Source: Arenicola marina (Eukaryota; Annelida; Polychaeta; Arenicolidae). Taken from it: a DNA stretch of 64,000 nt. Under the pieces are notes generated by a model. The model was not told where the DNA came from, made no database searches, and was given only the letters and a program-made list of their open reading frames with translations. Below are positions 59-28,117 of the stretch, one piece after another. The position numbers were made by a program, and so were the translations under genes. The stretch is taken from contig OZ025256.1 of NCBI GenBank assembly GCA_964019135.1, positions 40,024,035-40,088,034 on the forward strand, read 5' to 3'. The number at the start of each line of letters is the position of its first letter. Position 1 is the stretch's first letter.

Positions 59-3000
59 CTGCACAGGAAGAAGTACCTGAGGTACAATGGGCACAGAAGA
101 GACAGACATAATTAATGGGATGTTGGTGCACACAAGGGTTGAAACGAGCCAAGGAGCCTCTCGGAACGATGAAAGATGAAACCATATTAAGTGCCCGGGC
201 CCGATTCGAAGCCAGAACCTATTGCACAAAACCAATACCACAGGGAGACCCCCCGAACGAAGGAAGAGGATTTCCCTAAATTATGGTGAACATTATCTGT
301 ACATTCTACAAATGGGTTTCTGAATGGATAGTTACTCTTCTGATTCATATTGTCCTGGTTAGCTTCATACAGACGATTGGCATACCATTAGATACGTGAA
401 TAATACAGAGCGAAAAGGCCCAAACAGTTAAAGTTAAAGTTGAAGCTAAAATTAAAGTTGAAGTGACAGTTGAAGTGAAATTTAAAGTGAAATTTAAGGT
501 GAAATTTAAAGTGAAATTTAAGGTGAAATTTAAGGTGAAATTTAAAGTTAAAGTTAAAGTGAAAGTTAAAGTAAAAGTTAAATTAGCTAAAGTAAAAGTA
601 AAAGTAAAAGTTACAGTTACAGTTACAGTTACAGTTAAAGTTAACGCGTATCGCCTGCATCGGTTCCACACCGGTGCGGCTGGCCAATGAGAGAGCCATG
701 CTGAGCGTGCCAGGGCGGCAGGGGGAGGACCTTACTTCTTGTGGCTGGCGAGGTCCTCAATGAGCACCTTGTCCAGGTACCACCCCGCGTGGTCGCTCTT
801 CCCCGAGTTGTCGTGCCACAGCCTCATGAAGCTCAGCGACCCCAGGGAATGCTCCGTGGACATGATGAACGTCCGGATGGAGCCCCGCGAGAAATGCTGC
901 AACGCAACGTGATTGGACGTTTTACTGACTTGACGTCAGTTGTGTTGAATAGCGCATTGGCCTATTACGTTATAGAGTAGGGTTGGAATATGTCCATCGG
1001 TCGGACACATCATGTGGGATACACCCCCCCCCCCCTCCTGCTGCCACTTGCCCTCACCTACGCCTCCCCTCCCTCTTCACCTTCTTTTTGCCATCGTGTC
1101 TGCCCCCTCCGCCCCTCCACCTCCTCCACCCCCTCCACCCCCTCCACCCTCCGCCCCTCCACCCCCTCCACCCCCTCCACCCCCTCCACCCCTCCACCCT
1201 CTCCCCCTCCACCCCCTCCACCCCTCCACCCTCCCCCCTCCGCCCCTTCACCCCCTCTACCCCTCCCCCCTCCGCCCCTTCACCCCCTCTACCCCCCTCC
1301 ACCCCTTCTCACCTTTTTCTTGCCATCGTCGATGGCCCGGACCCCCATATTCACCCCGCACCCCTCCACCCCTCCTCACCTTTTTCTTGCCGTCGTCCAG
1401 GGCCCGGACCCCCGTGCCCCCCCTCCCCTCATCCCCCTCCGTCCCTCCACCCCCTCCACCCCTCCATCCTCCACCCTCCACCCCACCACCCCACCACCCC
1501 CTCCACCCCCCACTCACCTTTTTCTTGCCGTCGTCCATGGCCCGGACCCCCGTGTCGCTGCCATCGCCAGTGAGTACGAAGAAGACTTTGGACTTAGTGC
1601 CGGCGTTCTTCCTCAGACCAGTATACACCGACACCTTGTAGTGGGCCCGGTGCGCCGACAGATTGCCGATCAGGGGGGTCACTCCCCACTGCAAACATAT
1701 GTCAAGACGCCATCAATCAATTAAATGATTAAATTAAATGATTAAATATAATTCAACAAGTAGATTGTGGTAAATGTGACTCACCAGCGTTGTATAAACA
1801 CAAAACAAGAGATATTCGACCATAGGTCGAGGACGAAAATATATAAATACATTTGAAAGCTGTATTAATGGCGACGTTACGAGTCGTCAGGGCCAATTTG
1901 GGCTAAGTGCTGCCTTCGACAGGCAGTGTGGCACTGTAGGCGGAGCTTAATTGGACATCCAGTTTGAAGCCAAGGCGCTTCTCTTGAAGCAATATTAACG
2001 GTACTTTCGTATCTTTTATTTACTATGTCTTCGTGACTTCACGAACTTCATTTGACGATCACGACAATATTCGCGATGGCTTCTATTTTGTTAAGTATAC
2101 GTATTTACGAAATCATGGGTGAACTCATGAACTTGTGGGTGATGGTAGCTATTGCCAAATTAGTTGAACATCAAGCAGGCCTAAACTTTCGTAGGAGCAC
2201 GTAAGCTATGACGTTGAAGCATACTTAGCCCCCTCGCCATAGGTGTCTGTGAAGACGACGTGTTTAAGTGAACATGAAATGTTGTTCTCAAGAGCGATTG
2301 CTTGACTCATTATGAATGGCGCTACGAATTTTACTTTTTATCTAATAATACGTCATCGTGACGTGACATGACGTCATTTGACGTTCGCCAAAATGCTCAA
2401 GATGGCTTTTATTTCTTTAATATGCCTACTTATCAACTCGGGTTATGACAGCTATTGCTCAAAGTGGCTGAAAATAAAGCAAACCCAACATTTCGGAGGA
2501 GCACGTTAGCTATGACGTTGAAGCATACTTAGCCCCCTCGCCATAGGTGTCTGTGAAGACGACGTGTTTAAGTGAACATGAAATGTTGTTCTCAAGAGCG
2601 ATTGCTTGACTCATTATGAATGGCGCTACGAATTTTACTTTTTATCTAATAATACGTCATCGTGACGTGACATGACGTCATTTGACGTTCGCAAAAATGC
2701 TCAAGATGGCTTTTATTTCTTTAATATGCCTACTTATCAACTCGGGTTATGACAGCTATTGCTCAAAGTGGCTGAAAATAAAGCAAACCCAACATTTCGT
2801 AGGAGCACGTTAGCTATGACGTCATTTTTGACGCATATTTATCCACTGCGCCAAAAAAGTTACACCCGGCACAAACTGTCCCTGAACACGACCTGCAACG
2901 TCAAGCGACCCGAAAGTCGCCATACCTTATAATAGCTGAGTAATAGCTTACGTAAGCTGTGTGACGTCATGACGTCATAGTGACGTTATGACGTGACGCA

Positions 3001-4683
3001 CGACAACGTCCAAGTGGCAATACGCCATGGTTTACTGCCAAAACTTATTCGAATAAAGAGCTAGGCGATAGAAAGAATAGTCTTTCAGCTATGGCTTGAC
3101 GAAATGGCCAAAAGTTGCATTAGTTCATCATTGCGGAGACACGGAGACCTAGGACAAGAACAAAGAACACTGCAGGCGAAGTGATATAGCAACTCATTTG
3201 TTTCTTTTACTAGGTTTCTGCCGATCAATGGTCCCTACCATTTGGCTTAAAGATCACAGCTCTGGCATGTTTTTCTTAATTTTGACGTTGTTTTCAAGAT
3301 GGACACAATGTCCATTCACTCATCATTGGTGGCCTTCAAAGGTGTAGTCCCACTTTGAAGCGCTCTAGCGCCATAACTGAGCAACATCCGCCTGATTGAA
3401 GCATAAAGTGATCTGTAGATGCTTATTGGCAACTAGTTGGCGAAAAGAATGCAATTTTAGCATTTTTATCTGATTTTTGACTTTTCTTTCAATGGCAAGA
3501 ATCTGTATGTTTATCATTAGGCCAGTAGCTTCGTTGCCATGGAAACAAAAAGTAATACAGAAATCGCCGTGTGTTTCTTATAACTTGCTTTAACGTGATA
3601 TTACCTCACTGTGTGGTGAAGGAGACTGAAATAGCTTGAGCGGAAGTAGGTCATATTCACTCAAGTTCATTTTTCCCCATAGGATCCCATGTTAAACGAT
3701 TTTGACTATATACCAAAAAGTAATATCACTATAGAACCATGTGGACAGATTTTGACTCAGCTTAGTATTATCCATCCACAGATGCAAGCATTGAGTGATG
3801 GTTTGAATAGGACGCCTGTGGGAGCCTCTGCTAACACCAAAAAGCCGTATCTTTTACCATTGGCGAAATTTCAAAAAAATCGTGTGACGTCACTATTTGA
3901 TCCAATCGCATGCGGTAAGCACTTAGGCTACTATATATTCTTTTTAACCAAAGAAAAAATCCCAGTGTGCCTTGATGGAGGCACTTGTGAAATACACGAC
4001 AAAACAGTTTTTCCAGCCTGAAGATACAGCGCTTTAACATGGGAAGTCCCATAGAGAAATACCGTCGGCCCTGGAACCGGAAGTAAGATAGAAACATATT
4101 GTTTTATGTTTGCAGCTATACGAGGAACTACGTTTCCTACAATATAATGCTACTTTCAATTTTTAGAATTTTTTTCAGATTTTTGACGATTTTTTTCAAG
4201 TACCAAATATGACGTCATCGTGACGTCACGTGACGCATCAGAAAACTCTAAGATTCGACACAACTCATCTCAATTCATATTTCTATGGCATATTAGAACA
4301 TCATAGCGATAGCTTGATGGCAAATGGACCCAAAAGCGAGAAAACTGACAGAGGTCATTTAGTGCCTTTTCCTAAAAACTTATTACCTCATTTTACTCGA
4401 AAATGAGTAATACGCATCAAAAAGTGAACAATACCCGAAAACTGCGCATTGAATGCTAGCACATTTTGAAACTGACCAGAGATCTGTAGCGTCAATATTA
4501 ACGGAGATATAAGCGTTTTTAGTTATTTTTTCAAAAAATCGCTGTGACCTTGACCTTTGACCTTTCAACCTGTGTGACGAGTATGTTCTAGCCCTACTGA
4601 GTGGCTATAAGGTACTGAAGACTGCAAACCGATGCATACAGTCGTTATGCCATAAGAAGACTTCCCGTTTTTGCGTGAAACAG

Positions 4684-7700: not shown

Positions 7701-10700
7701 GTGACGGAAATAAACGTAGAAGCCGCATCAGCCCTAATAGACTTGTCAGGGGGGTGATGGGAATAAAGGTAAGGTTTTTGCGTTCCTCGGGATTGGGCTT
7801 TTCATTTCACCGTGAACTGGCGTGAACTGGGAATGGGGTATTAGCCGACCCCTATACATCGGCCTTAATTTATTGTCAGGGGGGTGATGGAAATAAAGGT
7901 AAGGTTTTTGCGTTCCTCGGGATTGGGCTTTTCATTTCACCGTGAACTGGCGTGAACTGGGAATGGGGTATTAGCCGACCGCCGTGATCAAGGATTTACA
8001 TTAATCGTGAACTGGGAATTTTAATATTAAAGATATTAATATTATAGAAAATGACAGAACCGACGTCCGCTATGGGGTTGGTTACCTCAAAGCCCAGTCC
8101 GGGATCCTCAGTGTCTCCAGGCTGTAGGCTCATCAGGAAGGTGTCCCCGACCGACGCCAGAGACACGTGGATGTAGACCATTCCAGTGCTGTCGTCTCGC
8201 GTGGCGTTTGTCATGTTCACTGCCGCATTGTCCTCTGCACCAATCTGGTCCACAGTTACCGTCGTCTGCCGGCAAACAAGACAGACATACTCTCAACGCA
8301 AAACAAGATACTCTCAACGCAAAACAAGATACTCTCAACGCAAAACTAGATACTCTCAACGCCAAACAAGCGTGATATCAACGTGAAACAGGCGTACTCT
8401 TAACGCAAAAGAAAAATACTCTCAACGAAAAACTAGATACTATCAACGCCAAACAGGCGTACTCTCAACGTCAAAGAAAAATATTGTCAACGCAAAAGAA
8501 AAGTAACTTCAACGCAAAGGAAATATACGGTATTCTCATTACGCAAAAAAACATCCTGTCATCTCAAAACTAAAATCCCAAATAAAAATGTGAAAATTTC
8601 TCCTGCTCAACTTACATGGAAGTCGTTCAGTTCAATGAAACGTTCATCCTCGTCCGTCAGGCTGAGCTGGGTTATACCGGAAGTGACGTCAGCAGCCGTC
8701 TCGCTCAAGGCGTAGACATTGGAGGCCGAGTAGGCGACCTGGATAACGGAGGTGAGGCTCGAAACAGTGAGGATGTCCACCAACAAATAAAAATAATAAC
8801 CATCTTGTGTACGATACGGGCTCGTTTTTGTTTTGTTTTTAAATATATGTTAATGTTCAAGTTGTAACTTACTGACATCAAATATCAATGAAATAATAAT
8901 GGTGAACATAACATTCAAATTCTTCGTAATGTCTCTAATATAGGACTCGTTGTTAATATTACTGAAGACACATCAATTATGTAAAATATGACCTAATGTG
9001 CAATATTGTAGCTTAGTTTGAACATGACCACATATGAAAAACCATTGTAGAGGCGTCCTTCATGTCTAAAGCTCAACATACAGCAATTTTCCACCTGTAT
9101 TATAATTTACATTTTGTGTCGACCATTGTAAAAATTACCTGACTGAATGAATGTTATCTTTGGACGAAATAGATGTGCAAAGCAGGCCAAGAATGGCGAC
9201 GAACTTTACGTGTTCATGACGTAAAACACAAGAAAGCTTCACATTCCCACACTAGGTGGGCCCAAAACAACACGCTCTGTTATATATGAGTACAAAAAAA
9301 TTCTAAACAACATTTGTTTTCTAAAAATTTAACTAAATTTAAATCCTATAAATATTATGCAACTATTTACCTGAAAGACAAGCTTAGAGCTGGCGAGACC
9401 GAAGTATAAGTCACTATTAGATATGGCTTCGGTAACGTCAGGAAGATGGATCGAAGACCCCGCTGAGGCGAACGTCTCCTCGTTCAGATTCTCCGGCTGG
9501 TGGAACAAAACGAACAGTTTCAATGCACAAGAAAAACTAAAATTCCCATTCTCCGGCTGGTAGAACAAAATGAACAGTTTCAATGCGCAAGAAAAACTAA
9601 CATCACCATTTTCGGCTGGTAAGAACAAAATGAACAATTTCAATGCGCAAGAAAAAGTAAAATCACCATTCTCCGGCTGGTAGAACAAAATGAACAGTTT
9701 CAATGCGCAACAAACATGCCAAAATTATCAGTGCGCGCGCGAGGAATGACTTCCGGGCAAAGAAATGCACACGAGAGTAGATGTCATCCTCTTGCGTTGT
9801 GTCTAGTACGTTTAACTCAATGAATTGGCGTATATCCTTATAGCTGTGACACACACTAAAACTAAATCGATGTGAATATGGAGAGATCGCCCTCCCTGTG
9901 TGAGGGTGGCCCCTTGCATGTCCGTTTTCTTGGACATGAAGGCTACATTGACCAATAAAAGGATGAAGTACGGTTGAAACAGGTGATACTATCGCTGAAC
10001 CTTATATGACATGGCCAAGCTTATATGATAGGGATATAATCTAGCGTGTGTGGGCGATAATAGCGATGCATGATCCCCGAAACTTGGCCCAGACGCAGGT
10101 GCCAGGGCGCGAACCCAAGACCTGTTGATCTGCGGCTCAGCCTGCTTACCAACATAAATAAGGAGACCCCCTGTGTTCAAAATGCAGAGAAAAGATAGAG
10201 CAAGCCTCCCGCTGTGACCAGATAGAGAGATCGCCGTACCTCTGAGAGGACGAGTGTCATACTGAGCTCCCGGGATCCCACGTTGACTTTGGCGTTCTCG
10301 ACCAGATTAGACCTCAGCCCCTCGGACAGCTTCACCATGGTCTTCTCAAAGGTCGCCAGAGACTGCTTGGCCTGTCAGACAAGGATCATGGCAGACATGC
10401 ATCAAGGCGAATGCAACTTATTGCTACACGATGTGGTGCAGATCAATACATGGAATACGCAATAGGCAATACAGGCCGACGTACATTTTTATCATACACA
10501 CCAATATCCACAATATCCTCACCTATATACCCACCATTCGCCACATCCTGCTACTTCATCCACACTTCCTGTCAGCCGCCACATTCTGCTACTTCATCCA
10601 CACTTCCCGTCAGCCGCCACATCCTGCTACTTCGTCCACACTTCCTGTCAGCCGCCACATCCTGCTACTTCATCCACACTTCCTGTCAGCCGCCACATCC

Positions 10701-16700: not shown

Positions 16701-19700
16701 ATATTGTGAGACAAGCACAAAATTTGGCATGGATGCTCCCCTGGGACTAGGTTTTTTTCACGTGGCGCTATCTGGTGAAGGAATTTATTGGTCAAAGTAC
16801 GCACAACATGCGTAGTTTGGCCAACATTACGCACACCTTACGAACTTTCATAAGGCAAACCAGCTGGGTTTTCCGCCATTACCTGCACCACGATCTCCAC
16901 GTCCGCCGCCGTCTGGTACATATCTGCGACGTGGACGACCACGACCAGCTGGTGGTTTTTGCTAGCGTCTCCTAGCGGCAGCATGGGCGTCAAGGTGGAA
17001 AATGCGGTGGACTGGCCGTACAGGATGTACTCGTAGCTGTACGCCAGCACCGCCGCAGGGTCGGTGCCGCCAGAGGGCGGTAGGTGTTCACCGTCGTCCT
17101 GCCAGCCCGTACAGGACACCGCGAAAATCTCCAAGGCAAATCCTGACGATAGGAGGACGATAGCCATAAGTAAATTACTTACTTATTTTATGATTTTTAT
17201 CATTTTAGCATAATATTAAATGGATTGGTCTTTTAGTGACATCAATAAATGTAATGACCAATTATAGACGATAATACACATACTGACCATTTATTGACCA
17301 AAACAAGCATAATGACCTTCTATTGACTAATGAGCGTTGATCGTATTGAGATATTTACTTTAATTTACCTTAATATACTTGCTTTCTAACCAGCCAGTGT
17401 GACATATAATTTTCATTCACTTGTTTCCTGCTTGCAAATGCGATGACTCGTTTATCACTCACTCCAATAACAATCCATCGGTTGGTGCTTTAGGGCGTGT
17501 TCGATTTACATGAAACCGATAGGAAACTGAAACTGTTTTTGAAACCGGTTTTCGAGCAAACCGGTTTCGGTTCTTCCCCTGTCGAATAGTCAATTCGGCA
17601 AACTGGTTTTGGTTTCATGTAAATCGAACACGCCCTTAGTGTATCCTCGGGGCAAAGTGATGGTCCTTACCGCCAGGTGGCGTGACGCTGCAGGCGCCCC
17701 CATGCGGCGGCGCGTTGACGTAGATGGTTTGTTTGGCCAGTCCCTGTGTCGCTCCCGGGATGTTCACCGTCAGTGCCAACTCGTAGACGGTGTCTGCCTT
17801 CAGCATGTTGGCGGGCAGCGTCAAGGTCAGCACTCGTCCCCCTGGCAACGAAACAGGCGTCACGAATCACGTGCTCAACACGGAAGATAATGTTTGTTCG
17901 TTCTTCCATGTGTGGAGGAACCTTCGTTTCAGCATTGCTCACGTACGACTCACGCCTGCTAATGTTATTGATGTTATTGAGTACAGAACAAATATCATAT
18001 TCAGTCAGCGAAAAGCAAAGATCATTGTTAACATGAACGCCTTCTTATAGTGAACCAAAGCTTCAGCATAGCTGATTGAGTAAAGATGGTCTGGGACGTG
18101 GCGGGGGACCTGCCTATTGTTGGGGGTTGGGGTGGGATTGTCTATTGTCGGGGGTTGGGGTGGGGCTGCCTATGTTGGGGGTGGGGCTGCCTATTGTTGG
18201 TTGGGGGCGAGGAGTGGAGCTGTCTATTGTTCGGGTGGGGCAGGGGGGGGGGCTGCCTAATGTCGGGGATGGTGAGGGATGACTATTTTTGGGGGTGGAG
18301 GTTGGACTGCATATGTTAGGGGTGGGTATGGGGCTGTCTATTGTTTGGGGTGGGGTGGGGCTGCCTATGTTGAGAGTGGGGGCTGGGGCTGCCTATTTTG
18401 GGGACGGGGGTGGGGCAGCCTATTGTTGAGGGTGAGGGTAGGGCTGCCTATTGTTGAGGGTAGGGTGGGGCAGCCTCTTGTTGAGGGTGAGGGTAGGGCT
18501 GCCTATTGTTGAGGGTAGGGTGGGGCAGCCTAGTGTTATGGGTGGTGGTGGTGGGGGGGGGATGCCTACCCTCCAGGGTGTCAATCATCGCTGAGGTGAG
18601 GGGTACGTCCGTGCCTCCCGTAGACAGACTCCACTTCATGGTCGGTATGGCGGCTCCACATGTGTCGCACGACCCCGACATGATCTTGGCAACCTGAGGA
18701 TTCGTCTTTGGGAAGCAGTTGGCTAAGCATCTAAAACACGGAAACAACGTTGATATTTTAGGGCACATGTGAACACATAATAGACAAGAAACGAGAGCTC
18801 CCGGGATAACAGTCGACTCTATAAACCGTAGTTTATTATTATTTCGCTGTGAGGCGCCACTGCATTTGCAATGCACGCTGGGTATAGTTTTGGTCTTTCT
18901 AAGATGACGACATCACATGGCAACATAGAGTTAACATTTTATATTGCGGTCTATGTAAATGAAAGTATAAACCATGTGTGCGTGATTAAGGCATGATTAG
19001 TAATTTTATATATGCTGTGTCATTACAGTAACTATATATATCATTTCTCATTGCTATTGATTGTTTATGTTGACGACTGGCGGGTACATTCCCTGTGTTA
19101 TAGGACTCACAGCATGCTGACGGTGGGCGGGTACATTCCCTGTGTTATAGGACTCACAGAATGCTGACGGTGGGCGGGGGGTACATTCCATGTGTTATAG
19201 GACTCACAGCATGCTGACGGTGGGCGGGGGGTACATTCCCTGTGTTATAGGACTCACTTAATGTTGACGGTGGGCGGGGGGTACATTCCTTGTGTTATAG
19301 GACTAACAGCATTTTGACGGTGGGCGGGGGGTACATTCCCTATGTTATAGGACTCACTTCATGCTGACGGTGGGCGGGGGATACACTCCCTGTGTTATAG
19401 GACTCACTGTATGTTGACGGTGGGCGGGGGGTGCATTCCCTGTGTTATAGGACTCACTTCATGTTGACGGTGGGCGGGGGGTACATTCCCTGTGTTATAG
19501 GACTCCCAGCATGCTGACGGTGGGCGGGTACATTCCCTGTGTTATAGGACTCACTTCATGCTGACGGTGAGCGGGGGGTATACTCCCTGTGTTATATGAC
19601 TCACTTCATGCTGACGGTGGGCGGGTCTCCCGCTTGGAGCATCAGCGTATGCCTGACGCTTCTCTCTCTCGTGTCTTTCTTCACCACAGCCTTAAACACG

Positions 19701-22700
19701 TAGCTGATGTTGGCCTCCATCATTCCCGTGTTGAAGGCCAGCTTCCCCGTGGTGTCCCGAACGTCCAGCTTGCCGGGACCCCCGCCGAAACACCCTCCCA
19801 GGTCGCTTCCGCCGCCCGCCGCCGCTGGCGCTGTCGGAGGATGTGATCAGATTAAGCTTGGTGCGTTCAGGCTTCCGACTTCAAAGACTGATTGGTGAGA
19901 AATTGGTCATAAACATTGCACCAAAGAGAGGCTAAAAAACCTTGAAGATGATCGATACGGCACGGTCGGTGTGGGAAATAGAATGAATTACCGCTGTTGC
20001 ACGAATTGGCGCCCCGTTTTAATAAGCGCCCGGTCAAGGGATATCTTTTTACTAAACAAATTAAATATAATATGTTCTTTCTTTATCGGTCTCATGTTAC
20101 CCCTGCAGATACATTGACGTTGATTGGTGATCAGTAAAGGTTTTTTTGCAGAAAAAAAGTGTTTTTACAGAAAGAGAGAGTTTTTACAGAAGAAGAGAGT
20201 TTTTACAGATAGAGAGAGTTTTTACAGAAAAGAGAGTTTTTACAGAAAACAATGACATGGACATGCATGATGAATGGTATAGGAAGAATGGAGCTGACTC
20301 ACCTGTACTAGGGATGGGGACTGTGGGCAGGTTGCCCTGGTCATCGAGAAGCTTGAAGACGTCTTCCTCCTCCAGTCGGAAACAGTACCAGTCAAATGTC
20401 ATGCCGGCTGCGACCTTGACCTCAGCCGGCGTATCGGGGGTGTCACCGCTGTCCGGATCCAGACTCGCGTCTACCGCGTTCACCTCCACGTCCCTCTGGA
20501 AGCCCTTCAGCTGGAACTCGCCGCCGGAGAAACCGGCCACGAGGTCCGATCCGATGATCCGGACGTATGTGCTGGCGGAGGTCGCCATGTCCGTGAGGTT
20601 CTTCATCTGGACTGACAGCCGCAGGATGTAGAGGCCGTAATCCAGGGCCAGGGGCGGCAGGAAGAGGCCCTCTCTGGTGATGACGGCGCCAAGGGTCTCT
20701 AGGTCGAAGGGGGCTCCGGAAGGGTTGTCCTTATCCAGAATGGACCACGTGGTGATGACGGTGCTCTCGGCCTCGCAGTCGATGTGCGTGGTGAAGGCCG
20801 ACAGGAAGGTCTCGATGGCGCGCGACTTCCGGAAGACGCGAGGGTCATCCGGGGACTTCCCCGGCCCGTCGGCCACGTCCACCTGGGGCGGGAAGCACGG
20901 CACACCATCCACCTGAAGGATGTCATGGATTTCCGGTTCCGAGTGTGTCTGGATCGCCGTCACGTTCACTGCCCACCTGCCCTCCGCCTTCGGGGTGAAG
21001 GCCATGTGGTACGTGGTCGTCGGGGCGACGGCCGTGAAGGTTTCTGGCGCCGCGTCTGGGCAGAGTCCGATCTGGGCGGCCTGGTGTTGGACCACGTGAC
21101 TTCCGCCGAGGGTCAGATCCAGCTTCAGGCAGAGATCCGTCTTCACCTCCTTCATCTCGATGGTGAACTGCACCACGTCGCCAATAATGACGTTCCTATC
21201 GTAGCCAATGGCCTTGATGTCCACTGATGACGTAATGGTGACGTCACGGGTGGAAATCTCGCCGGCGTTCACGGCGTTGCTCGCTGCTAAGGTGACCTTG
21301 TGGCGGCCCGGGGTGGTGAAGCGGCGCAGGGCCTCGGGAGTCGTGCTGCCGTAGTGTACAGTCTCCGAGAAGGTCCAGTTGTACACCACGTTACTTCCGG
21401 CGGAAATCTCCGCCCGGAAGTTCACCAGGGCATCCATGGGGAAGACATCCGGCGCCGTCTGGATCGGAGGCCCCGGGGGTGGGGCGGGGGACCCCTCCTC
21501 CCAGGCCGAGAACCCGAGTCCTGTGATCCCCTCCTCCACGTCCATGGACAGCCACTCCCGCTGCGATCCATAACCATTCCGGATCGTCACATTCACCACG
21601 TAATGGCCGACTGCCGCGTAGGTGTGGTTCACCTGCTGATTCCAGCTCAGATCCAGATCCCGAAACGGCGTCACGATCCCGTCCCCGAAGTCGATCTCCA
21701 CCACGAGGGCGGTCGGCAGCGGCAGCTGCTGATTCCGAAAGATGTAGATCGTCGGGACGCCCGTCGGGAGGCTGACGGGGGAGTTGCTCGCGACGGTGAA
21801 TCCGACCACGGGATGCTGGACGGTGACGTAGTCCGCTACGGATCCCGTCACTGCGGCTAGTCGAGCCTCCAGGCTGCTGACGGCGTTGGTGGCATTCACC
21901 CGGACGCGGTAGTCCCCGGCGCTGGCGAAGGTGTGCTCAAAGACGAATGGACCGCCGTCAGCAACGGCAATCGTCATCGTATCCGGATTGGTTCCATCCT
22001 CGAAGTGGACCGCCAGAGTGAACTCTGTCCCGTTCGTCAAGGTCACCTCGAAGCGAACAGGGGCTCCCGGACTGACGACTTGCGCCCCAGTGGTTAGCTG
22101 AAGCCCTGTTATCAAGGCGACGACCGACACATTCGCCAGGAGTGTGGTGGCGCTGATGACGTTGTTGCACCTGAGCGCCACGGGGTAGGATCCGGGCGCT
22201 GGGAAGGTGTGAACCAGGGAGATAGGGTTCGGGATGGAGAGATCCTCGGCGGATTCCGGATTCCCAATCCCGGCTCCGTCGCCGAAGTCCCAAGCGATGA
22301 CGACCTTGTCCGGAGCAGTGACGTCAGCGGGGACGGAAATGGTGAAATTGATATCGCCCGGCGGGAAAGGAACCACTTCCGGCAACAAGGTCAAAGTTAG
22401 AACGGTGATCGGTCTCTGGATCTGGACTACTTGGTCTTGACTGGCGTCCAGTCTTACCTCGCTGACGTTATTGGAGATCCTGATGGACACGGAGTAGTTT
22501 CCCGGCACGCTGTACACGTGGCTCAGCTGCAGGACTCCGGTCGAGTCCAGCGGATTCTGGTGGGTGACCGTCTCCATGGGCCCATCGGATCCTGTGAACC
22601 AGACCTCATACTTGGCGTGCGACGCGCGGCCGAGCTCCACTTCGAAGAGGATCGGACTTTCCGGGGGTCCGCTGGCGTTCAGGACCCGGAGGACGGGACT

Positions 22701-25700
22701 TTCTATGATAATCTGGATCTCGTGGTCGACGTCAGAGGCGGCGCTGGACACCAAGTTGCTGCAGTTAACCCGGCTGATGCCGTTCCCGACGGCCGTATCC
22801 CCGAACTGGCGATCCAGATGAGCGGTCTGCCCCTGGCTCAGCTCCGGAGTGTACACCGTGGCGGACGTCCCGTCCTTGAAGCTCCAGACGCACCAGATGG
22901 GTCCGGTCGGCGGGAGGCTCGGATCCGAGAGACTCAGGTCAAAGGTCACTAAGCCGTCCGGATACGAGACCGGACTTGTGGCTCTGAGCGACACCTCGGC
23001 CAAGGGACGCTGTACCGTGACGTCATAACTGACCTCTTGGTAACTGAGGGAGTTATTGCCGAGGATCCGGATGGTGAAGTTGCCGGGTTGGCTGTACTGG
23101 TGGGTGAAGGTCACCGGGGAGGAGGCGGCGGAGAAGTTGGTCATATTCTGGATCTCCCACACGGATTCGTCGCTGAAACGGACGAATGCCGTGACCAGGG
23201 ATCCATCCGTGACGCCGACCACCAGGGTGAGCGTGTCCGTTATCTGGATCGCGTCCTGGTCCATGGATCCGGACAGACCGGTCACTGCGGATAGCGCCGT
23301 CAGCGTCTGCGGCAGGCTGACTTCCTCCGACCCGAGAGCGTTGCTGGCCGTCAGCCGGACCGTGTAGTAAGCGGAAGTGACGTAGGTGTGGGTGATTGCG
23401 ATGTCGTCCGGCGCGGTCCAGTCCGAGGATGTCCTTCCGGTCGCTGGGGGCGAGTTGCCGTCGCCGACATCCACGGCGTACTCAAGGTCAGACCCGGCAT
23501 CTACGTGTACCGCGAAGGTCACCGGCTCACCGGCCATCACGTCGTATGACGTCACCGAGATGCTGGCGCCGGAAATCTCCACACCCACTTGGACCGAATG
23601 CTGGGGAGTCACCACCGTGGCGGACACGCCGTTCCACATAGAGAGCTGGACGTCGTAGCGACCGTAGGCGCTGTAGGTGTGTGTCAGGTTGTGTGAGTCT
23701 CCCGTGGTTAACACCAGTGGTTCCAGCAGAGAGCCGCCACCCGAGTCTCCGAAGGTCAAATTCCCCGTGACCGCTGTGGCCGATTCGCCGGCCGTCTGCG
23801 TCAGCACACACGTCACTTCCTGTTCCTGTCGCGTGACGTTGCCGCATGTCAACTCGTACTCGCCCAGCGGGTGCTGCACGTCGACGTCAATGGACGCCGT
23901 CACATTGCTGACGCTATTGCTGACGGAGATGTTGACGGTGCAGGAAACTGGGTTTGCGTAAGTGTGGTTGTCTTCCCTAAGACCAAGGCCTGGCTGCTCG
24001 GGGCCCACTGACGGGGGGCTTCCGTCGCCCCAGTCCACGCTGAATTCGGGGTTGGATCCCTCCTGCAGGGTGCTGTACACAACCCACGGGGTACCGACCC
24101 GGACATAGGGCTGCCCGTGCAGGGTCAGACCCGACAGCACCGTATCCACATTCAGCGGGACTTCCGTGGCGACGTGACTCACCATATTATCGCCCTCCAC
24201 CTTGAGCACGTGGCGCCCGACTATGAAGGCACTAGGAGCCAAGGTAGCGGACCACGCCCCAGTGCTGGTCTCCACGACGGACCCCTCCTCCACGTCGTTC
24301 ACCAACACCTTGAAGGTGACGTTTGTCCCGTTGGAAATGCTCCAATCTAGCGTCAACCCAGTCGATGCCACCTGATTGATGACCGTCGGGAGGAAGCTAA
24401 AATCCGCTATAGGCCTCTGCACCACGACGGGCACCTCGCTATTGAAGTCCCCTATGTGGTTGTAGCAGTTCACCGAGGCGACGTAAACCCCGACCGGGTA
24501 CTCATGTGACGCCGTCATCGTCCCATTCGGACTCTCCGCGTACACCGTCTCGTACAGGCCATCCCCGAAGTCGTACGTACAAGTCACGTGACTTCCGCCT
24601 CCCAGGGCGCTGGTGAAGAGGACTACCTCGGTCTCGTTGCTCGGGGAGGTGGCGCTGGTGCTCGGAGTCTCGATGGCTCTAACCACGTAGGCGGTGATCT
24701 CCAGGGTGGCCGAGCTGATGGAGTTACTGACCGAGGCGCGGATCAGCTTGGCGCCCACCGTAGCGTAGGTGTGGCTAAAAACCGGGATGTCCGCCGCGCT
24801 GACGAACGTGGTGTTCTCCTCACCCTCGGCCGCGTCGTTGACGTCATATTGCAAGACAACCCTGGGGTGACTGCCCCCGTCGAGCGAGATCACGATAGTG
24901 GTGGGATCTCCTAGCGACGTGTGGTTTCCCTGGAGACGGAACGCGCATGACCAGATTGGCGACAAGGTGTATAACTCATAACGGATTTGTCGACGCTATC
25001 TTTTTCTCTTTCAGCATTATTACGTGCGGAGCACAGACAAGCACTGCAGACGCAGTCGTTCTGTGTTTCCTTTGATTTACCATTGCAATAACGTGATACA
25101 CGTTGAATCTCGACCAGGCACAACTATGTGTCACTAGAGTACACTGCCAGTCACACAATAATGTAACACTAGAGTACACTGCCAGTCACACAAAATGTAA
25201 CACTAGAGTACACTGCCTGTCACGCACAACAATGTGTCACTAGAGTAAACTGCCAGTCACGCACAACAATGTGTCACTAGAGTACACTGCCTGTCACGCA
25301 GAACAATGTGCCACTAGAGTAAACTGCCAGTCACACACTAGAATGTGTCACTAGAGTACACTGCCTGTCACGCAGAACAATGTGCCACTAGAGTAAACTG
25401 CCAGTCACGCACAACAATGTGTCACTAGAGTACACTGCCTGTCACGCAGAACAATGTGCCACTAGAGTAAACTGCCCGTCACACACAACAATGTGTCACT
25501 AGAGTACACTGCCTGTCACGCAGAACAATGTGCCACTAGAGTAAACTGCCAGTCACACACAAGAATGTGCCACTAGAGTAAACTGCCTGTCAGGCACAAC
25601 AATGTGTCACTAGAGTCCACTGCCAGTCACACAATGTGTCACTAGAGTACACTGCCAGTCACACACAACAATGTATCACTGGTGTACACTGCCAGTCACA

Positions 25701-28117
25701 CACAAGAATGTGTCACTAGTGTACACTGTCAGTCACACACAAGAATGTGTCACTAGAGTGCACTGCCTGTCACGCACAACACTGTGTCACTAGAGTAAAC
25801 TGCCAGTCACGCACAACAATGTGTCACTAGAGTACACTGCCAGTCACACAATGTGTCACTAGTGTACACTGCCAGTCACGCACAACAATGTGTCACTAGA
25901 GTAAACTGCCAGTCACGCACAACAATGTGTCACTAGAGTACACTGCCAGTCACACAATGTGTCACTAGTGTACACTGCCAGTCACGCACAACAATGTGTC
26001 ACTAGAGTAAACTGCCAGTCACGCACAACAATGTGTCACTAGAGTACACTGTCAGTCACACAATGTGTCACTGGTGTACACTGCCAGTCACGCACAACAA
26101 TGTGTCACTAGAGTACACTGCCAGTCACACAATGTGTCACTAGTGTACACTGCCAGTCACGCACAACAATGTGTCACTAGAGTAAACTGCCAGTCACGCA
26201 CAACAATGTGTCACTAGAGTACACTGCCAGTCACACAATGTGTCACTGGTGTACACTGCCAGTCACGCACAACAATGTGTCACTAGAGTAAACTGCCAGT
26301 CACACAATGTGTCACTAGTGTACACTGCCAGTCACACACAACAATGTGTCACTAGAGTAAACTGCCAGTCACGCACAACAATGTGTCACTAGAGTACACT
26401 GCCAGTCACACAATGTGTCACTGGTGTACACTGCCAGTCACGCACAACAATGTGTCACTAGAGTAAACTGCCAGTCACACAATGTGTCACTAGTGTACAC
26501 CGCCAGTCACACACAACAATGTGTCACTAGAGTAAACTGCCAGTCACGCACAACAATGTGTCACTAGAGTACACTGCCAGTCCCCCAACAATGTGTCACT
26601 AGAGTACACTGTCAGTCGCACACAACAATGTGTCATTAGAGTACAGTCAGTCACACACAACAATGTGTCACTAGAGTACACTGTCAGTCACACACTACAA
26701 TTTGTCATTAGAGTAAACTGCCTGTCACACACAACAATGTCTTGTTAGAGCTCTTCCTCTTGGCCAAAACATTTGCTCAACAGACATTTTCGGCCGTAGC
26801 CAATTGGATTAAGTACAAATCACATTCAAACTGACGGAGTTGATTCTCCCATCGCCGGCCATCATACAATAAATAAATAAGTGGATAATCCCTCTTGCAC
26901 GCACAATCCAGAATGAAATATAAAGAATAATATCATAACAAGATGTCAACATGAATGTAATGACAAACGTCAAAGCTAAAAATAACCTCATATTAAGCTG
27001 TATGCGTAACAAGATGCAAAAAGAAACTAGCAGAGATGAATTTTTTAGCAAATATCATATGAAACTCACAGAGATTATGTTTAGCAAATATCATATAAAA
27101 GTCACAGAGATGATTTTTTGCCAAATATCATGTGAAACTCACAGAGAGGATTTTTGGCAAATAGACCAACTGAAATTCACAGAGATGATCGATTTTTACT
27201 AAATATCATATGAAACTCAAAGAGATGATTTTTAGCAAATATCATATGAAACTCACAGAGATGGTTTTCACCAAATATCATATGAAACTCACAAAGATGG
27301 TTTTCAGCAAATATCATGAAACTCATAGAGATGGTTTTTAGCAAATATCATATTGAACTCATAGATGATTTTTAGCAAATATCACATGAAACTCACAGAG
27401 ATAAATTTTAGCAAATATCGCATGAAACTCAGAGATGATTTTGGGCAAATACCATATGGAACTCATAGAGATGATTTTTAGCAAATATCCCATGAAACTC
27501 ACAAAGATGGTTTTTAGCAAATATCATATTGAACTCATAGATGATTTTTAGCAAATATCACATGAAACTCACAGAGACGATTTTTAGCAAATATCGCATG
27601 AAACTCAGAGATGATTTTGGGCAAATACCATATGGAACTCATAGAGATGATTTTTAGCAAATATCCCATGAAACTCACAAAGATGATTTTTAGCAAATAG
27701 CAAATGAAACTCACAGAGACGGTTTTCACCAAACATCATATAAAACTCACAGAAACGTTTTTTTAGCAAATATCATATGGAACTCACAGAGATGATTTTT
27801 TAGCAAATATCATATAAAACTTACAGAGATGTTGAAATTGGTTAGGACTTCGTCCACCTCAGCCACCGCTTGCACCTCCACGTAGCTGCGGTTGTTGGAG
27901 AGCCAGACGGAGATGTTGTATATTCCCACGTCCGTGTAGTTGTGGTACAGCACCTCCAGCTGGGTGGGGTCGGCGTACCAGTTCTGGACCAGGAAGCCGT
28001 CATCGAAGTCGGCCACCACGGTCATGTCACTCCCGGCGTCCGCAGCGATGGTCAGGGCCGTGGTGTCACCCAGCGCGACGGCGTTCGCGTTCGCGGTCAC
28101 ACCATAGATTGCGTGGT
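1..28117 (-). CDS. Polycystin-1-like (PKD1 family) gene, partial, 22 exons visible
   Basis: Twenty-two exons on the minus strand join with matching phases and GT-AG borders. Together they encode about 2,650 residues: about 15 PKD repeats, a REJ module, a GAIN-like linker, a GPS motif, transmembrane segment 1 and most of a PLAT domain. This is the order found in polycystin-1, a large ciliary and plasma-membrane receptor that pairs with TRPP channels. As in human PKD1, most PKD repeats sit in one giant exon. Both ends are missing: the remaining membrane segments lie left of position 1, and any N-terminal LRR, WSC or lectin exons lie right of 28.1 kb. The repeat count and the giant exon favour PKD1 over PKD1L1 or the sea-urchin REJ proteins, but orthology is inference. 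Introns make up about 20 kb and are rich in minisatellites, several of which contain splice junctions. Confidence 0.95.
135..255 (-). mobile_element. tRNA-derived SINE fragment (family B)
   Basis: The minus strand shows a diverged RNA polymerase III B box (GGCTTCGAATC) followed by the body block CACTTAATATGGTTTCATC and the CTCCTTGG end shared with copies at 12690-12810 and 16570-16680. It lies inside the PLAT intron 59-735. Confidence 0.6.
425..650. repeat. Short-period array in PLAT intron (12-bp and 6-bp units)
   Basis: GTGAAATTTAAA units (about 469-545) pass into AAAGTT and GTTACA hexamers. All lie within intron 59-735. The Lys/Val and Thr/Phe open frames on both strands here are repeat artefacts. 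Confidence 0.9.
736..896 (-). CDS. PKD1-like exon v21: PLAT/LH2 domain, part 2
   Basis: Encodes HFSRGSIRTFIMSTEHSLGS, then LSFMRLWHDNSGKSDHAGW and YLDKVLIEDLASHKK. The LWHDNSGK...WYLDKVLIEDL block is the most conserved PLAT signature. Acceptor CACGTTGCGTTGCAG|CA, donor AAGAA|GTAAGG; phase 0 in, phase 2 out. Confidence 0.97.
1020..1517. repeat. CCACCCCCT minisatellite containing copies of the exon v20 donor
   Basis: Nine-base CCACCCCCT-type repeats fill intron 897-1517. Embedded at about 1309-1357 and 1377-1420 (and partly at 1077-1105) are copies of the exon v20 end: the minus strand reads GACGACGGCAAGAAAAAG then GTGAG in the 1377 copy. Translation of the copied end reads GVRALDDGKKK against GVRAMDDGKKK in the real exon. 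Confidence 0.9.
1518..1688 (-). CDS. PKD1-like exon v20: PLAT/LH2 domain, part 1
   Basis: Encodes WGVTPLIGNLSAHRAHYKVS, then VYTGLRKNAGTKSKVFFVL and TGDGSDTGVRAMDDGKKK, the first strands of a PLAT/LH2 beta-sandwich (YxVxVxTGxxxxAGTxxxVxxxLxG). In polycystins it is cytosolic, between TM1 and TM2. Acceptor ATGTTTGCAG|TG, donor AAAAAG|GTGAGT; phase 0 both sides. The exon end with its donor recurs two to three times downstream among CCACCCCCT repeats. Confidence 0.96.
1990..4790. repeat. CRE-motif-rich interspersed repeat, copy 1
   Basis: Non-coding interspersed repeat in intron 1689-5483 that matches 62130-64000. Module A (about 1990-3700) contains two near-identical 304-bp tandem units (2190-2493, 2494-2797) and a diverged one before them. 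Module B (about 4030-4720) holds the block from CCCATAGAGAAAT through CTGTGACCTTGACCTTTGAC to a CAGACATAC-type tail. Palindromic TGACGTCA and related TGACGT motifs occur many times. No reverse transcriptase or transposase frame is visible. Confidence 0.8.
4925..5460. repeat. Minisatellite, about 21-bp CACTTTACATCATTATCTGAC unit
   Basis: About 24 degenerate copies in intron 1689-5483, ending 24 bp before the exon v19 donor. The minus-strand unit contains GGGGTCAG, weakly like the donor region AGGGTCAG, so it may be an old junction-derived array. That link is speculative. Confidence 0.85.
5484..5732 (-). CDS. PKD1-like exon v19: second half of GPS and transmembrane segment 1
   Basis: Encodes VTPSSTLNQTVCDCSRMS, the second GPS half, then GFQVPTVNPIDFNYIFANF, typical of polycystin-1 just after the GPS. 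Next comes a hydrophobic segment of about 20 residues (LLAILLVYLLLAIW) followed by ARRADRRD, positive-inside, so this is TM1. The GPS tripeptide is R-M-S where the family usually has H-L-T/S; the Ser nucleophile is kept but the His is absent. Acceptor ATATCTGCCACCAG|GT, donor AGAGG|GTCAGT; phase 0 both sides. Confidence 0.96.
5733..6808. other. Intron without strong repeats
   Basis: Intron between exons v18 and v19. Mostly unique AT-rich sequence with several TGACGTCA-like motifs near 6030 and 6105. No array, exon or SINE recognised. Confidence 0.6.
6809..6987 (-). CDS. PKD1-like exon v18: furin-type site and first half of GPS
   Basis: Encodes YTDPGLGGQRRKRAVGPG, a Gly/Asn loop, then FTRCRAWDDSKQTWESD and TCK. 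C-x-W-(9 residues)-C is the first half of a GPS motif. RRKR (codons at 6950-6961) is a textbook furin-type site in an exposed loop about 36 residues before the first GPS cysteine. Acceptor TTCTCTACCGACAG|AT, donor CAAG|GTAACA; phase 1 in, phase 0 out. Confidence 0.94.
7070..7215. repeat. Minisatellite CACAAATTATGACACAAAGA, about 36 bp
   Basis: About four copies in intron 6988-7454, next to an AT-rich TAATAATTATAATAA tract at 7010-7060. Confidence 0.8.
7455..7623 (-). CDS. PKD1-like exon v17: GAIN-like domain before GPS
   Basis: Encodes VYVKMGAEDAVLDKPNATF, then the strand PPGMYLGILPV, which matches the GxYyxGV(L)P strand before the GPS in polycystins. The acceptor CCCCAG|GTG has a run of 14 C as its pyrimidine tract. 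Donor CCGTCT|GTGAGT; phase 0 in, phase 1 out. Open frame continues past the donor, but phase and donor strength favour this end. Confidence 0.9.
7745..8004. repeat. Direct tandem duplication, 130-bp unit
   Basis: Two nearly identical copies starting GTCAGGGGGGTGATGG at 7745 and 7875 within intron 7624-8085, with an older partial unit before them. Confidence 0.85.
8086..8265 (-). CDS. PKD1-like exon v16: GAIN-like domain
   Basis: Encodes TTVTVDQIGAEDNAAVNMT, then TGMVYIHVSLASVGDTFLM and the loop QPGDTEDPGLGFE. Acceptor TTTGCCGGCAG|AC, donor TTTGAG|GTAACC; phase 0 both sides. Two N-x-S/T sequons lie in the first third. Confidence 0.92.
8280..8530. repeat. Minisatellite ACTCTCAACGCAAAACAAGAT, about 20 bp
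   Basis: About 11 copies beginning some 14 bp upstream of the exon v16 acceptor. The minus-strand unit ATCTTGTTTTGCG resembles the acceptor pyrimidine tract GTCTTGTTTGCCG, so the array may have arisen from it. Confidence 0.85.
8616..8738 (-). CDS. PKD1-like exon v15: GAIN-like domain
   Basis: Encodes VAYSASNVYALSETAADVT, then SGITQLSLTDEDERFIEL and NDFH. The VxYSxSNVY opening resembles the beta-rich GAIN part of polycystins. Acceptor TCCGTTATCCAG|GT, donor TTCCAT|GTAAGT; phase 0 both sides. Confidence 0.9.
9371..9496 (-). CDS. PKD1-like exon v14: GAIN-like domain
   Basis: Encodes PENLNEETFASAGSSIHLP, then DVTEAISNSDLYFGLASS and KLVFQ. Acceptor TTTTGTTCCACCAG|CC, donor TTTCAG|GTAAAT; phase 0 both sides. 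The acceptor plus the codons for PEN recur in three further 60-bp units upstream, all open in frame, so use of an upstream copy would lengthen the protein by multiples of 20 residues. Confidence 0.92.
9481..9720 (-). repeat. Four 60-bp units, each with the exon v14 acceptor and first codons
   Basis: Units at 9481, 9541, 9601 and 9661. Each holds a pyrimidine tract, CCAG and then CCGGAGAA (or CCGAAAA in the third). Unit length is a multiple of three and the frame is open across all of them. Confidence 0.95.
10020..10185 (-). mobile_element. tRNA-derived SINE fragment (family B-like)
   Basis: The minus strand shows GGTAAGCAGGCTGAGCCGC and a B box GGGTTCGCGCCC, followed by a short body. It resembles the tandemly amplified head at 12780-13145. 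Confidence 0.6.
10240..10371 (-). CDS. PKD1-like exon v13: GAIN-like linker
   Basis: Encodes AKQSLATFEKTMVKLSEGL, then RSNLVENAKVNVGSRELSM and TLVLSE; the shift from helix to beta strand fits the GAIN A/B border. Acceptor TTGTCTGACAG|GC, donor TCAGAG|GTACGG; phase 0 in and out. Confidence 0.9.
10535..11230. repeat. Minisatellite, 38-bp unit, about 18 copies
   Basis: Near-identical copies of a unit containing CTTCATCCACACTTCCTGTC in intron 10372-11402. No unit contains a stop in any plus frame, so plus-strand open frames of nearly 400 codons arise; they are artefacts. The minus-strand unit contains GGCTGACAG|G, partly like the exon v13 acceptor TCTGACAG|G. Confidence 0.95.
11403..11518 (-). 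CDS. PKD1-like exon v12: Glu/Lys/Gln-rich linker
   Basis: Encodes VQIAAEEAKEKEQDVPVSED, then DEILKHAELEQKKQEQKAL, a strongly charged, coiled-coil-like helix. Acceptor TTGGCTCCACAG|TC (phase 1), donor CCCTG|GTAGGT (phase 0). Composition resembles exon v8 (IAQEQKEQQ), suggesting an old internal duplication or parallel structural roles. Confidence 0.85.
11520..11900. repeat. Minisatellite GGGTCAAACCA, 11-14 bp
   Basis: Degenerate array that starts directly upstream of the exon v12 acceptor, in intron 11519-12465. Confidence 0.85.
12466..12522 (-). CDS. PKD1-like exon v11: micro-exon of linker
   Basis: A 57-bp exon encoding QLLSVQSTNSELTLDDAVS, bridging v10 and v12 in phase 1/1. Acceptor TTCCAATGACCAG|AG, donor CTCAG|GTAATC. 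It is supported mainly by phase agreement and the helical linker character. The pyrimidine tract is modest. Confidence 0.78.
12598..12690. repeat. 13-bp array CTGGGCCAAGGAA
   Basis: Seven tandem copies that extend the 3' end (CCTTGG) of the adjoining SINE on the minus strand, so the array is probably tail-derived. Confidence 0.9.
12690..13145 (-). mobile_element. tRNA-derived SINE (family B) with tandemly amplified tRNA head
   Basis: The minus strand reads A box TTGGTGTAGTGGTTAGCAC, B box GAGTTCGAGTC, and a body ending at 12690. The head is then reiterated about seven times in 50-55-bp units (GAGGCCCCCCAGGACTTATT) to 13145. This looks like multimerisation of a SINE promoter region within intron 12523-13506. 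Confidence 0.85.
13320..13490. repeat. Minisatellite, about 32 bp (ATTCATTAACAAGTAAAC)
   Basis: About five copies close to, but not including, the exon v10 donor at 13506. Confidence 0.85.
13507..13594 (-). CDS. PKD1-like exon v10: REJ-GPS linker
   Basis: Encodes SQSMSFVSDMVENMDITEL, then DFAAQADFAN. Acceptor CTTATCTTCCAG|TC with a second AG six bases on (TCTCAG); donor CCAACC|GTAAGC. Phase 0 in, phase 1 out. The acceptor and the first half of this exon are present in three 80-bp copies. Confidence 0.88.
13551..13790 (-). repeat. Three 80-bp units carrying the exon v10 acceptor and exon start
   Basis: TCCATGTTCT recurs at 13551, 13631 and 13711. The first unit is real exon plus acceptor; the second is almost identical, and the third has a few changes. 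Each includes CTTCCAG|TCTCAGAG or a close variant. Confidence 0.95.
13793..14062 (-). mobile_element. tRNA-derived SINE (family A), headless, nested or duplicated
   Basis: Two tail-body segments (GGTTATTCAGGACGCTTTAA to GGGGGTAACCCCCTACTC) in tandem inside intron 13595-14572. The second continues to TTTATCCTGCGAC. No tRNA head is present. Confidence 0.8.
14573..14710 (-). CDS. PKD1-like exon v9: REJ-GPS linker
   Basis: Encodes VMAAMMTKVFTISNAASSGS, then RLQLIGTVATLVQKLDPGV and ASAETK: a helical GAIN-A-like segment. Acceptor TGTATTGTACAG|GT (phase 0), donor ACCAAG|GTAACG (phase 0). The acceptor and first 22 coding bases are reiterated about 17 times upstream (14711-15440). Confidence 0.88.
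14691..15440 (-). repeat. 40-bp array reiterating the exon v9 acceptor and start
   Basis: About 18 units. On the minus strand each contains TTGTACAG|GTGTTGTCA and then GCCATGATGACC, against the real acceptor followed by GTGATGGCAGCCATG. It fills the 3' half of intron 14711-15927. Confidence 0.96.
15440..15927 (-). repeat. 63-bp array growing from the exon v8 donor side
   Basis: Seven copies (ACTGGACC at 15481, 15544, 15607 and on). On the minus strand each contains CCAGAAGAACAAACGTGTG, similar to the exon v8 end CAGCAGAACAAGGTCCGTG. It fills the 5' half of the same intron. Confidence 0.9.
15928..16035 (-). CDS. PKD1-like exon v8: charged helical linker
   Basis: Encodes TDTGSTSIFRQRTAEGEA, then a Gln/Glu/Ala-rich helix ARIAQEQKEQQNK. 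Acceptor TTTGATTCCAG|AC in phase 0. I chose donor AACAAG|GTCCGT because it ends in phase 0 and fits exon v9. A second donor 26 bp further on (CA|GTAATT, exon end 15902) would end in phase 2 and put a stop at the v9 junction. The downstream minisatellite resembles this exon end. The 3' border is the least certain of the internal borders. Confidence 0.75.
16276..16425 (-). CDS. PKD1-like exon v7: REJ-GAIN linker
   Basis: Encodes VQPAKASLDDTVSAAIDI, then LLNLGDTLAQFTAIANTVT. This is helical, low in cysteine, and matches the linker between REJ and GPS that forms the helical half of a GAIN-like domain in polycystins. Acceptor GCTTTGCCTACAG|GT, donor TCCACG|GTAGGA; phase 0 on both sides. Confidence 0.9.
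16565..16690 (-). mobile_element. SINE family B fragment
   Basis: Contains CAAGGAACCTCCCGGGACGA and ATATTAAGTGCCCCGG, shared with the copies at 135-255 and 12690-12760, inside intron 16426-16882. The stretch 16440-16560 before it is AT-rich. Confidence 0.7.
16883..17142 (-). CDS. PKD1-like exon v6: end of REJ module
   Basis: Encodes GFALEIFAVSCTGWQDDG, then YEYILYGQSTAFSTLTPMLP and LVVVVHVADMYQTAADVEI, the C-terminal part of the REJ module: an SCxGWxD motif, an L-P-G loop and a closing beta strand. Acceptor CTCCTATCGTCAG|GA, donor GTGCAG|GTAATG; phase 1 in, phase 0 out. Confidence 0.95.
17493..17635. mobile_element. 143-bp MITE, PIF/Harbinger type
   Basis: Terminal inverted repeats GGGCGTGTTCGATTTACATG of at least 24 bp, flanked on both sides by TTA (17490-17492 and 17636-17638), the target duplication of PIF/Harbinger elements. 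The interior (GAAACCGGTTT, AAACCGGTTTCGG) is itself palindromic, so the whole can fold into a hairpin. It lies in intron 17143-17670, 36 bp from the donor of exon v5. Confidence 0.88.
17671..17841 (-). CDS. PKD1-like exon v5: REJ module
   Basis: Encodes LTLTLPANMLKADTVYELAL, a repeat-like strand pair, then the conserved YVNAPPHGGACSVTPPGG signature (VNxPPxGGxCxVxPxxG) of REJ modules. Acceptor TTTCGTTGCCAG|GG, donor CTGGCG|GTAAGG; phase 1 in and out. Confidence 0.96.
18080..18569 (-). repeat. About 25-bp minisatellite related to the exon v4 donor region
   Basis: The plus strand is G-rich (GGGGCTGCCTATTGTTGAGG). The minus-strand unit ACCCTCAACAATAGGCAGCC aligns with the real junction ACCCTGGAGGGTAGGCATCC, but the donor GT has become AT in the units. 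The G-rich strand may form quadruplexes. Confidence 0.85.
18570..18730 (-). CDS. PKD1-like exon v4: REJ module, cysteine-rich
   Basis: Encodes KCLANCFPKTNPQVAKIMSG, then SCDTCGAAIPTMKWSLSTGG, the CxxxC / CxxC / KWS region typical of the REJ module. Acceptor CCGTGTTTTAG|AT, donor GGAGG|GTAGGC; phase 2 in, phase 1 out. A G-rich plus-strand minisatellite abuts the donor. Confidence 0.93.
19075..19604 (-). repeat. 47-50-bp array reiterating the exon v3 end and donor
   Basis: About ten decoys plus the real junction. GACTCAC recurs at about 19104, 19151, 19201, 19251, 19351, 19401, 19451, 19547 and 19598 on the plus strand. In the 19351 and 19451 units the minus strand matches at least CATGAA|GTGAGTC. 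Confidence 0.96.
19605..19830 (-). CDS. PKD1-like exon v3: REJ module
   Basis: REJ-module segment with GGCFGGGPGKLDVRDTTG, then FNTGMMEANISYVFKAVVKK and the family-typical GDPPTV. Acceptor ATCCTCCGACAG|CG, donor ATGAA|GTGAGT; phase 1 in, phase 2 out. The last coding bases and this donor are copied about ten times in the adjoining intron (19075-19604). The low-complexity Gly/Ala stretch at the 5' end is unusual for REJ. Confidence 0.93.
20145..20245. repeat. Short array GAGAGTTTTTACAGA
   Basis: Five or six copies of a 16-18-bp unit about 60 bp from the exon v2 donor. It does not contain the junction. Confidence 0.85.
20303..24929 (-). CDS. PKD1-like exon v2: giant exon with about 14 PKD repeats and start of REJ
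   Basis: A 4,627-bp open exon with acceptor TTCCGTCTCCAG|GG and donor ACAG|GTGAGT (phase 0 in, phase 1 out). Residues 1 to about 1,340 form about 14 PKD-type units of 80-110 residues. Recognisable cores include YDFGDG, VDWGDG, VDVGDG, WDFGDG and IDFGDG, each followed by HTY and SN/NxVS strands; some units are divergent. From about 20908 leftward the REJ module begins at VPCFPPQVDVADG and runs to the WYCF motif. PKD repeats are extracellular, force-bearing modules. Many N-x-S/T sequons fit a secreted ectodomain. The plus-strand open frames across this exon are antisense shadows. Human PKD1 exon 15 has the same giant, PKD-rich character. Confidence 0.97.
25110..26745. repeat. Large intronic minisatellite, 32-37-bp unit, about 45 copies
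   Basis: Unit CACTAGAGTACACTGCCAGT followed by CACACACAACAATGTGT, with length variants (a 32-bp short form) that alternate in a higher-order pattern over 25800-26500. It occupies most of intron 24930-27824. I see no resemblance to either splice junction. Confidence 0.97.
27030..27824 (-). repeat. 36-bp array reiterating the exon v1 donor, about 22 copies
   Basis: The minus-strand unit is ATCTCT|GTGAGTTTCATATG followed by ATATTTGCTAAAA. The last unit merges into the true junction ATCTCT|GTAAGTTT. A higher-order duplication is visible: 27340-27515 is nearly identical to 27516-27691. Confidence 0.97.
27825..28117 (-). CDS. PKD1-like exon v1: PKD repeat
   Basis: Encodes one PKD (Ig-like beta-sandwich) repeat, from about IYGVTANANAV to VQAVAEV. 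It has a degenerate core DFDDG in place of WDFGDG and the typical YHNYTDVGIYNISVWLSNN strand pair (19 residues). The donor is TCT|GTAAGT and ends in phase 0, matching the next exon. The 5' edge is weak: the proposed acceptor TAACAG is preceded by a poly-A run instead of pyrimidines, so the true start may differ. The exon implies entry in phase 1. Confidence 0.82.

Follow-up and report, generated by a model that had tools for sequence, protein, structure and literature searches.

The window, a stretch of 64,000 nucleotides of Arenicola marina DNA, contains in its left 28 kb the minus-strand middle part of a gene that we assign to the polycystin-1 family. Modelling from GT-AG sites and reading frame resulted in 22 exons (E1 to E22) and 21 introns, providing 42 exon-intron junctions, all of which were tested for repetition. 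E1 extends from 28117 to 27825 and E22 begins at 58 and runs downward. The frame is open from E1 through E21 with the exon-side sites, and comprises 2627 whole codons. The gene and the arrays relevant to its junctions are the following:

1 to 28117, minus strand: polycystin-1-family gene, 22 modelled exons, continuing past the left edge of the window
27023 to 27831, minus strand: E1 donor array, 36-bp unit comprising the donor (27824) and 7 exonic bases, 22 intronic copies
19082 to 19625, minus strand: E3 donor array, 50-bp unit comprising the donor (19604) and 21 exonic bases, 10 intronic copies
18110 to 18569, minus strand: array of intron E4-E5, 28-bp unit without exonic bases, 18 bp off the donor
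14689 to 15439, minus strand: E9 acceptor array, 40-bp unit comprising the acceptor and 22 exonic bases, 18 intronic copies, AG in 18 of 18
13551 to 13791, minus strand: E10 acceptor array, 80-bp unit comprising the acceptor and 44 exonic bases, 3.0 copies
11253 to 11403, minus strand: G-rich array near the E12 donor, ending 3 bp from it, marginal, with one exonic base
9488 to 9714, minus strand: E14 acceptor array, 60-bp unit comprising the acceptor and 9 exonic bases, 3.8 copies
1076 to 1554, minus strand: E20 exon end and donor (1517) with three intronic copies amid G-rich spacers, recognised by alignment

A Pfam scan of 932 of the approximately 2627 residues recovers REJ (5.5e-34) and PLAT (4.8e-12), and GPS with 21.4 bits, below its cut-off of 22.5. 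The top match of the gene product among solved structures (PDB) is polycystin-1 (3.2e-15). The combination of REJ, PLAT and a GPS domain just under its cut-off indicates that the predicted protein belongs to the polycystin-1 family. Internal repeats, detected with a profile derived from this gene's own sequence, are present in E1 and E2, and we take them to be PKD repeats. Upstream of these two exons, no further PKD-type exons occur among open reading frames of at least 25 aa, a search that exons of other types would escape. E2 is a single exon of 4.6 kb (20303-24929) with about 12 PKD-type repeats and no TRF array, as opposed to the array-filled introns. A protein search with 990 of the approximately 2627 modelled residues scored 7997 candidates, none at E<=1e-5, and neither the Rfam scan (gathering threshold) nor the tRNA scan gave a match.

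Junctions repeated inside their own introns

For each of the 42 junctions, 14 exonic and 10 intronic bases were aligned to the remainder of the same intron, with 200 shuffles and the 20 other introns as controls. Six junctions are clearly repeated in their own intron, each scoring above 200 of 200 shuffles and above all 20 other introns. They comprise the donors of E1 (27824; score 12.5, shuffle mean 8.6), E3 (19604; 21.5, 7.2) and E20 (1517; 19.0, 8.6) and the acceptors of E9 (14711; 19.5, 7.8), E10 (13595; 24.0, 7.5) and E14 (9497; 16.5, 6.6), so that both boundary types are affected. All six are GT-AG and predicted to keep the frame in our model. Two more donors are marginal, namely E12, whose score is reached by 8 of 200 shuffles and whose match includes one exonic base only, and E13 (2 of 200 shuffles). 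A diverged duplicate of the E13 donor region lies, as placed by eye, in the same intron at 9890-10251.

The first-pass annotation had listed seven junctions as seeds of arrays, on both sides of introns and all in this one gene. Their coordinates agree throughout with the gene model, and the two-sided seeding is confirmed by the three donors and three acceptors. Six of the seven junctions stand in the junction test. The seventh, a supposedly decayed donor array at 18569 (E4), does not: its score of 6.5 is below the shuffle mean (6.9), and the matched bases are all intronic. At E20, the short C-rich period (9+) proposed as the junction unit turns out to be spacer, and it is the exon end plus donor that is repeated in intron E20-E21, spaced at 138, 67 and 232 bp. 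These three copies match 37, 34 and 17 exonic bases with 1, 2 and 3 mismatches, respectively. The TRF rows at 1104-1313 and 1417-1513 capture mainly the spacer and stop 4 bp before the junction.

The six units look unrelated, as 14 of the 15 unit pairs do not exceed shuffles in similarity, and the likeness of the remaining pair (E14-E20), reached by 1 of 200 shuffles, is not remarkable among 15 pairs. The arrays therefore likely arose separately, as the first-pass annotation had suggested. A single shared mobile unit, or introners, was considered and rejected on the same comparison and because all six junctions align better to their own intron than to any of the 20 others. The start of intron E8-E9 has a weak likeness to the E9 unit (40 of 300 shuffles). 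This intron (14711-15927) consists to 97% of tandem array (1186 of 1217 bp), with the 40-bp acceptor array and a 63-bp array lying nearly end to end. Array copies are distinguished from one another by point changes; in an alignment of five arrays, the copies next to the exon show no consistent surplus of divergence over inner copies, contrary to what exclusion of the edge from homogenisation would predict.

Array density and random placement

Of the 20174 intronic bp, tandem arrays occupy 9456 (47%); beyond the gene model they take up 11544 of 35883 bp (32%). Of the 7945 exonic bp, TRF arrays enter 103, all of them at exon edges (E20 not counted). The 105 TRF rows were combined by hand into the array lists.

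Other repeats are present as well. Two 15-bp arrays (54854-55259 and 57381-57724), about 2 kb apart and in opposite orientation, possess the nearly reverse-complementary units GGACAATTCCCCCCC and GGGGGGGAGTTGTCC. A dispersed repeat at 29900-30223 has copies of 75-90% identity at 13787-14032, 46896-46991, 49940-50136, 57725-57852, 60303-60521 and 61187-61311; at 13787, 57725 and about 30204 the edge of a tandem array is no more than about 10 bp from a copy. In intron E10-E11 (12598-13147), parts of a sequence that we presume, by the look of its A and B boxes, to be tRNA-like are arrayed with a period of 13 bp at 12598-12691 and of 55 bp at 12762-13147; ARAGORN finds no tRNA at 12598-13147. A fragment related to this sequence occurs at 16589-16625.

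In our random-founder null each array starts as one unit placed randomly in array-collapsed introns, and counts as straddling with at least 7 exonic bases. For the sets of 22 and 29 arrays, 3.1-4.9 straddling arrays are expected against the 6 seen (P 0.06-0.35). With 29 arrays the expectation is 4.70-4.89 when arrays are kept in their own introns (P 0.31-0.35) and 3.50-3.67 when they are pooled over introns (P 0.11-0.13); with the 22 arrays of score >=92 it is 4.39-4.59 (P 0.25-0.28) and 3.13-3.29 (P 0.06-0.08), respectively. For 18 strong arrays, a set into which the E20 array was let in by exception, 3.26-3.46 are expected in own introns (P 0.07-0.08) and 1.75-1.92 in pooled introns (P 0.005-0.006), and a separate null with selected strong arrays, likewise with E20 admitted, gives P 0.003-0.07. 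Present, expanded intron lengths result in P 0.0003-0.017, under a null that ignores that the arrays themselves lengthened the introns. The straddling count thus falls below P 0.02 only with selected strong arrays or present-length nulls.

A layout simulation predicts 4.85-4.93 straddling arrays (P 0.34-0.36). At 0-40 bp from junctions the simulation expects 5.0 array edges and 10 are seen (P 0.011, the cut-off chosen afterwards). The excess is weaker within 25 bp (6 seen, 3.2 expected, P 0.083) and disappears within 10 bp (1 seen, 1.4 expected, P 0.77). The nearest array edges of 18 introns have a mean percentile of 0.39, toward the junctions (one-sided KS P 0.076), and in the 16 introns whose arrays are stronger the value is 0.38 (P 0.16). 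The simulations treat E20 as straddling by manual assignment (overlap 31 in the layout, 46 in the nearest-edge version, a miscount), leaving the straddling count unaffected.

The repetition of junction sequence is thus far beyond chance, whereas the count of arrays that span a junction does not clearly exceed that of random placement, and their frequency is about that expected of random duplication in very repeat-rich introns. A mild lean of arrays toward junctions exists, and a single gene cannot settle whether it reflects targeting.

The foremost alternative is that tandem duplication is raised at splice borders by a lesion linked to transcription or splicing, such as an R-loop or a stalled complex at exon edges. 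The pooled strong arrays, the excess of edges at 0-40 bp and the involvement of both donor and acceptor sides speak in its favour. The nulls with all arrays or with score >=92, the layout simulation, the edges within 10 bp and the density of arrays outside the gene model speak against it, and we regard it as unlikely. Junctions would then be hot spots at which spanning arrays are about two to three times commoner than elsewhere in introns, the few in-frame decoys of E14 and E20 would give length variants, and authentic donors would be kept stronger than their copies; this fuller version is doubtful to the same degree. Since arrays are dense across the introns and outside the gene model alike, no special junction process is needed, and the recurrent amplification at splice borders proposed in the first-pass annotation is not established.

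Splice sites in the copies

AG is intact in all 23 acceptor copies counted (18 of 18 in E9, 2 of 2 in E10, 3 of 3 in E14). GT is present in 13 of 22 donor copies of E1, 9 of 10 of E3 and 3 of 3 of E20. The E1 array, with GT lost from 9 of 22 copies, is the sole case of marked decay; G is the least conserved base of the printed context, and several of the lost copies repeat each other, so independent loss events are fewer. If used, 44 of the 47 intact decoys would disrupt the product, 43 by a stop and 1 by a frame shift (one diverged E14 copy stands outside the count). The decoys at +60 bp and +180 bp of E14 and at +138 bp of E20 are in frame without stops. The E14 decoy acceptors (9371-9714) and the E20 decoy donor (1313-1554, inside PLAT) are therefore candidates for length isoforms.

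Donor strength was scored with human splice-site frequencies. On this scale 22 of the 25 intact donor decoys score lower than their authentic donor, 3 score equal (all in E3) and none higher; the margin is small for E1 (authentic donor 5.50, decoys at most 5.43). This would fit an authentic donor kept strong while its copies drift. As some decoys score equal, site strength alone cannot pick the site.

A selected function, in which decoy arrays tune splicing or yield length isoforms (20 or 60 additional residues for E14, 46 for E20), could draw on the three open in-frame decoys and on the intact AG of every acceptor decoy counted. It is set back by the stop or frame shift that follows from nearly all intact decoys, by the loss of GT from the E1 copies and by a unit that differs from intron to intron, which leaves it improbable.

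Mirages and the origin of the arrays

Repeats of this kind have been named "mirages" in amphioxus, where two accounts describe them from Adh3, the globins BflGb6 and BflGb9, TnC and PGBD5 (PMC3087553, PMC3902484), the latter paper adding PGBD5 and naming TnC as mirage-bearing. Mirage units measure 10-72 bp in Adh3 and 150-160 bp in the globins; they occur at either boundary, apparently leave splicing undisturbed and are unstable in length even somatically (PMC3087553). Many but not all copies retain AG or GT, and the authentic exon edge is kept (PMC3087553, PMC3902484). The authors regard mirages as a possible source of new introns and as possibly general in cephalochordates (PMC3087553). The amphioxus precedent hinted at in the first-pass annotation is on record.

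The arrays of the A. marina gene share with these mirages, as far as described, the boundary-spanning unit, the occurrence on 5' and 3' sides, units of tens of bp, the partial retention of AG and GT and the intact exon edge. Units of 36, 40, 50, 60 and 80 bp lie in the reported range, and the E20 spacings (67-232 bp) are partly outside it. Judged by sequence, the junction arrays carry the structural marks of mirages. The present case differs in its six junctions in one gene (3 donors, 3 acceptors), the random-placement null and the decoy tally. Ordinary intronic minisatellites are alike in array structure, background abundance and units peculiar to each intron, whereas here the unit includes the junction and exonic bases. 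Amphioxus VCBP3 introns likewise harbour copies of neighbouring exons, whole or in part, and canonical splice sites accompany some of these copies; the passage on them, whose data are marked as not shown, reports neither unit lengths nor how the copies are arrayed (PMC2632668). No genome-wide count of mirages appears in the titles and abstract openings of the matches listed from the open full-text literature, many subscription papers being outside this scope, and the accessible part of an amphioxus huntingtin paper leaves junction repeats unmentioned.

An artefact, whether through misassembled repeats or exon ends misplaced in the gene model, is very improbable. The E8 donor (GTCCGT), the E11 acceptor and the E19 donor were indeed picked to preserve the frame, and PGBD5 repeat numbers varied between assemblies (PMC3902484). 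None of these three sites is among the six repeated junctions, which are GT-AG and frame-keeping, and the copies carry point differences. Least probable of all is a gain of introns by tandem duplication of exon pieces after the Rogers model, with the arrays as leftovers, which has been proposed for globin mirages and shares tandem duplication over a splice-like motif (cited in PMC3087553), since intron ends here are generally unalike (own donor and acceptor regions average 7.64 against 8.06 for unrelated ones, and 8.57 against 8.55 of 30 at zero offset), the sole exception among 21 introns being E19-E20, whose likeness (1 of 300 shuffles) is off-register at an offset of -64 and lies in an intron without a junction array.

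We consider it probable that these mirage minisatellites descend from random founder duplications in a duplication-prone genome, of which junction-spanning ones were tolerated and grew on the intron side. Short tandem duplications would arise at a very high rate genome-wide and land more or less randomly. Selection would clear founders within coding exons, and duplications in introns or over a splice junction would be tolerated, the latter because one whole exon edge stays and the extra copy falls in the intron. The founder may then expand on the intron side by slippage or unequal exchange, with the exon-side copy presumably being the spliced one. The observations behind this account are the arrays, their junction content, the apparently unrelated units, the array-rich background and the restriction of exonic array sequence to exon edges.

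The gene is a rich new example of mirages, two-sided and with six in one gene. With up to 18 apparently intact splice-site copies beside the real one (E9), it is a natural setting in which to test how the spliceosome chooses among many similar sites. As the null model illustrates, a few repeated junctions among introns full of arrays do not in themselves count as evidence of targeting; a whole genome would make that question directly testable. Mirages have been proposed in print as a route to new introns (PMC3087553).
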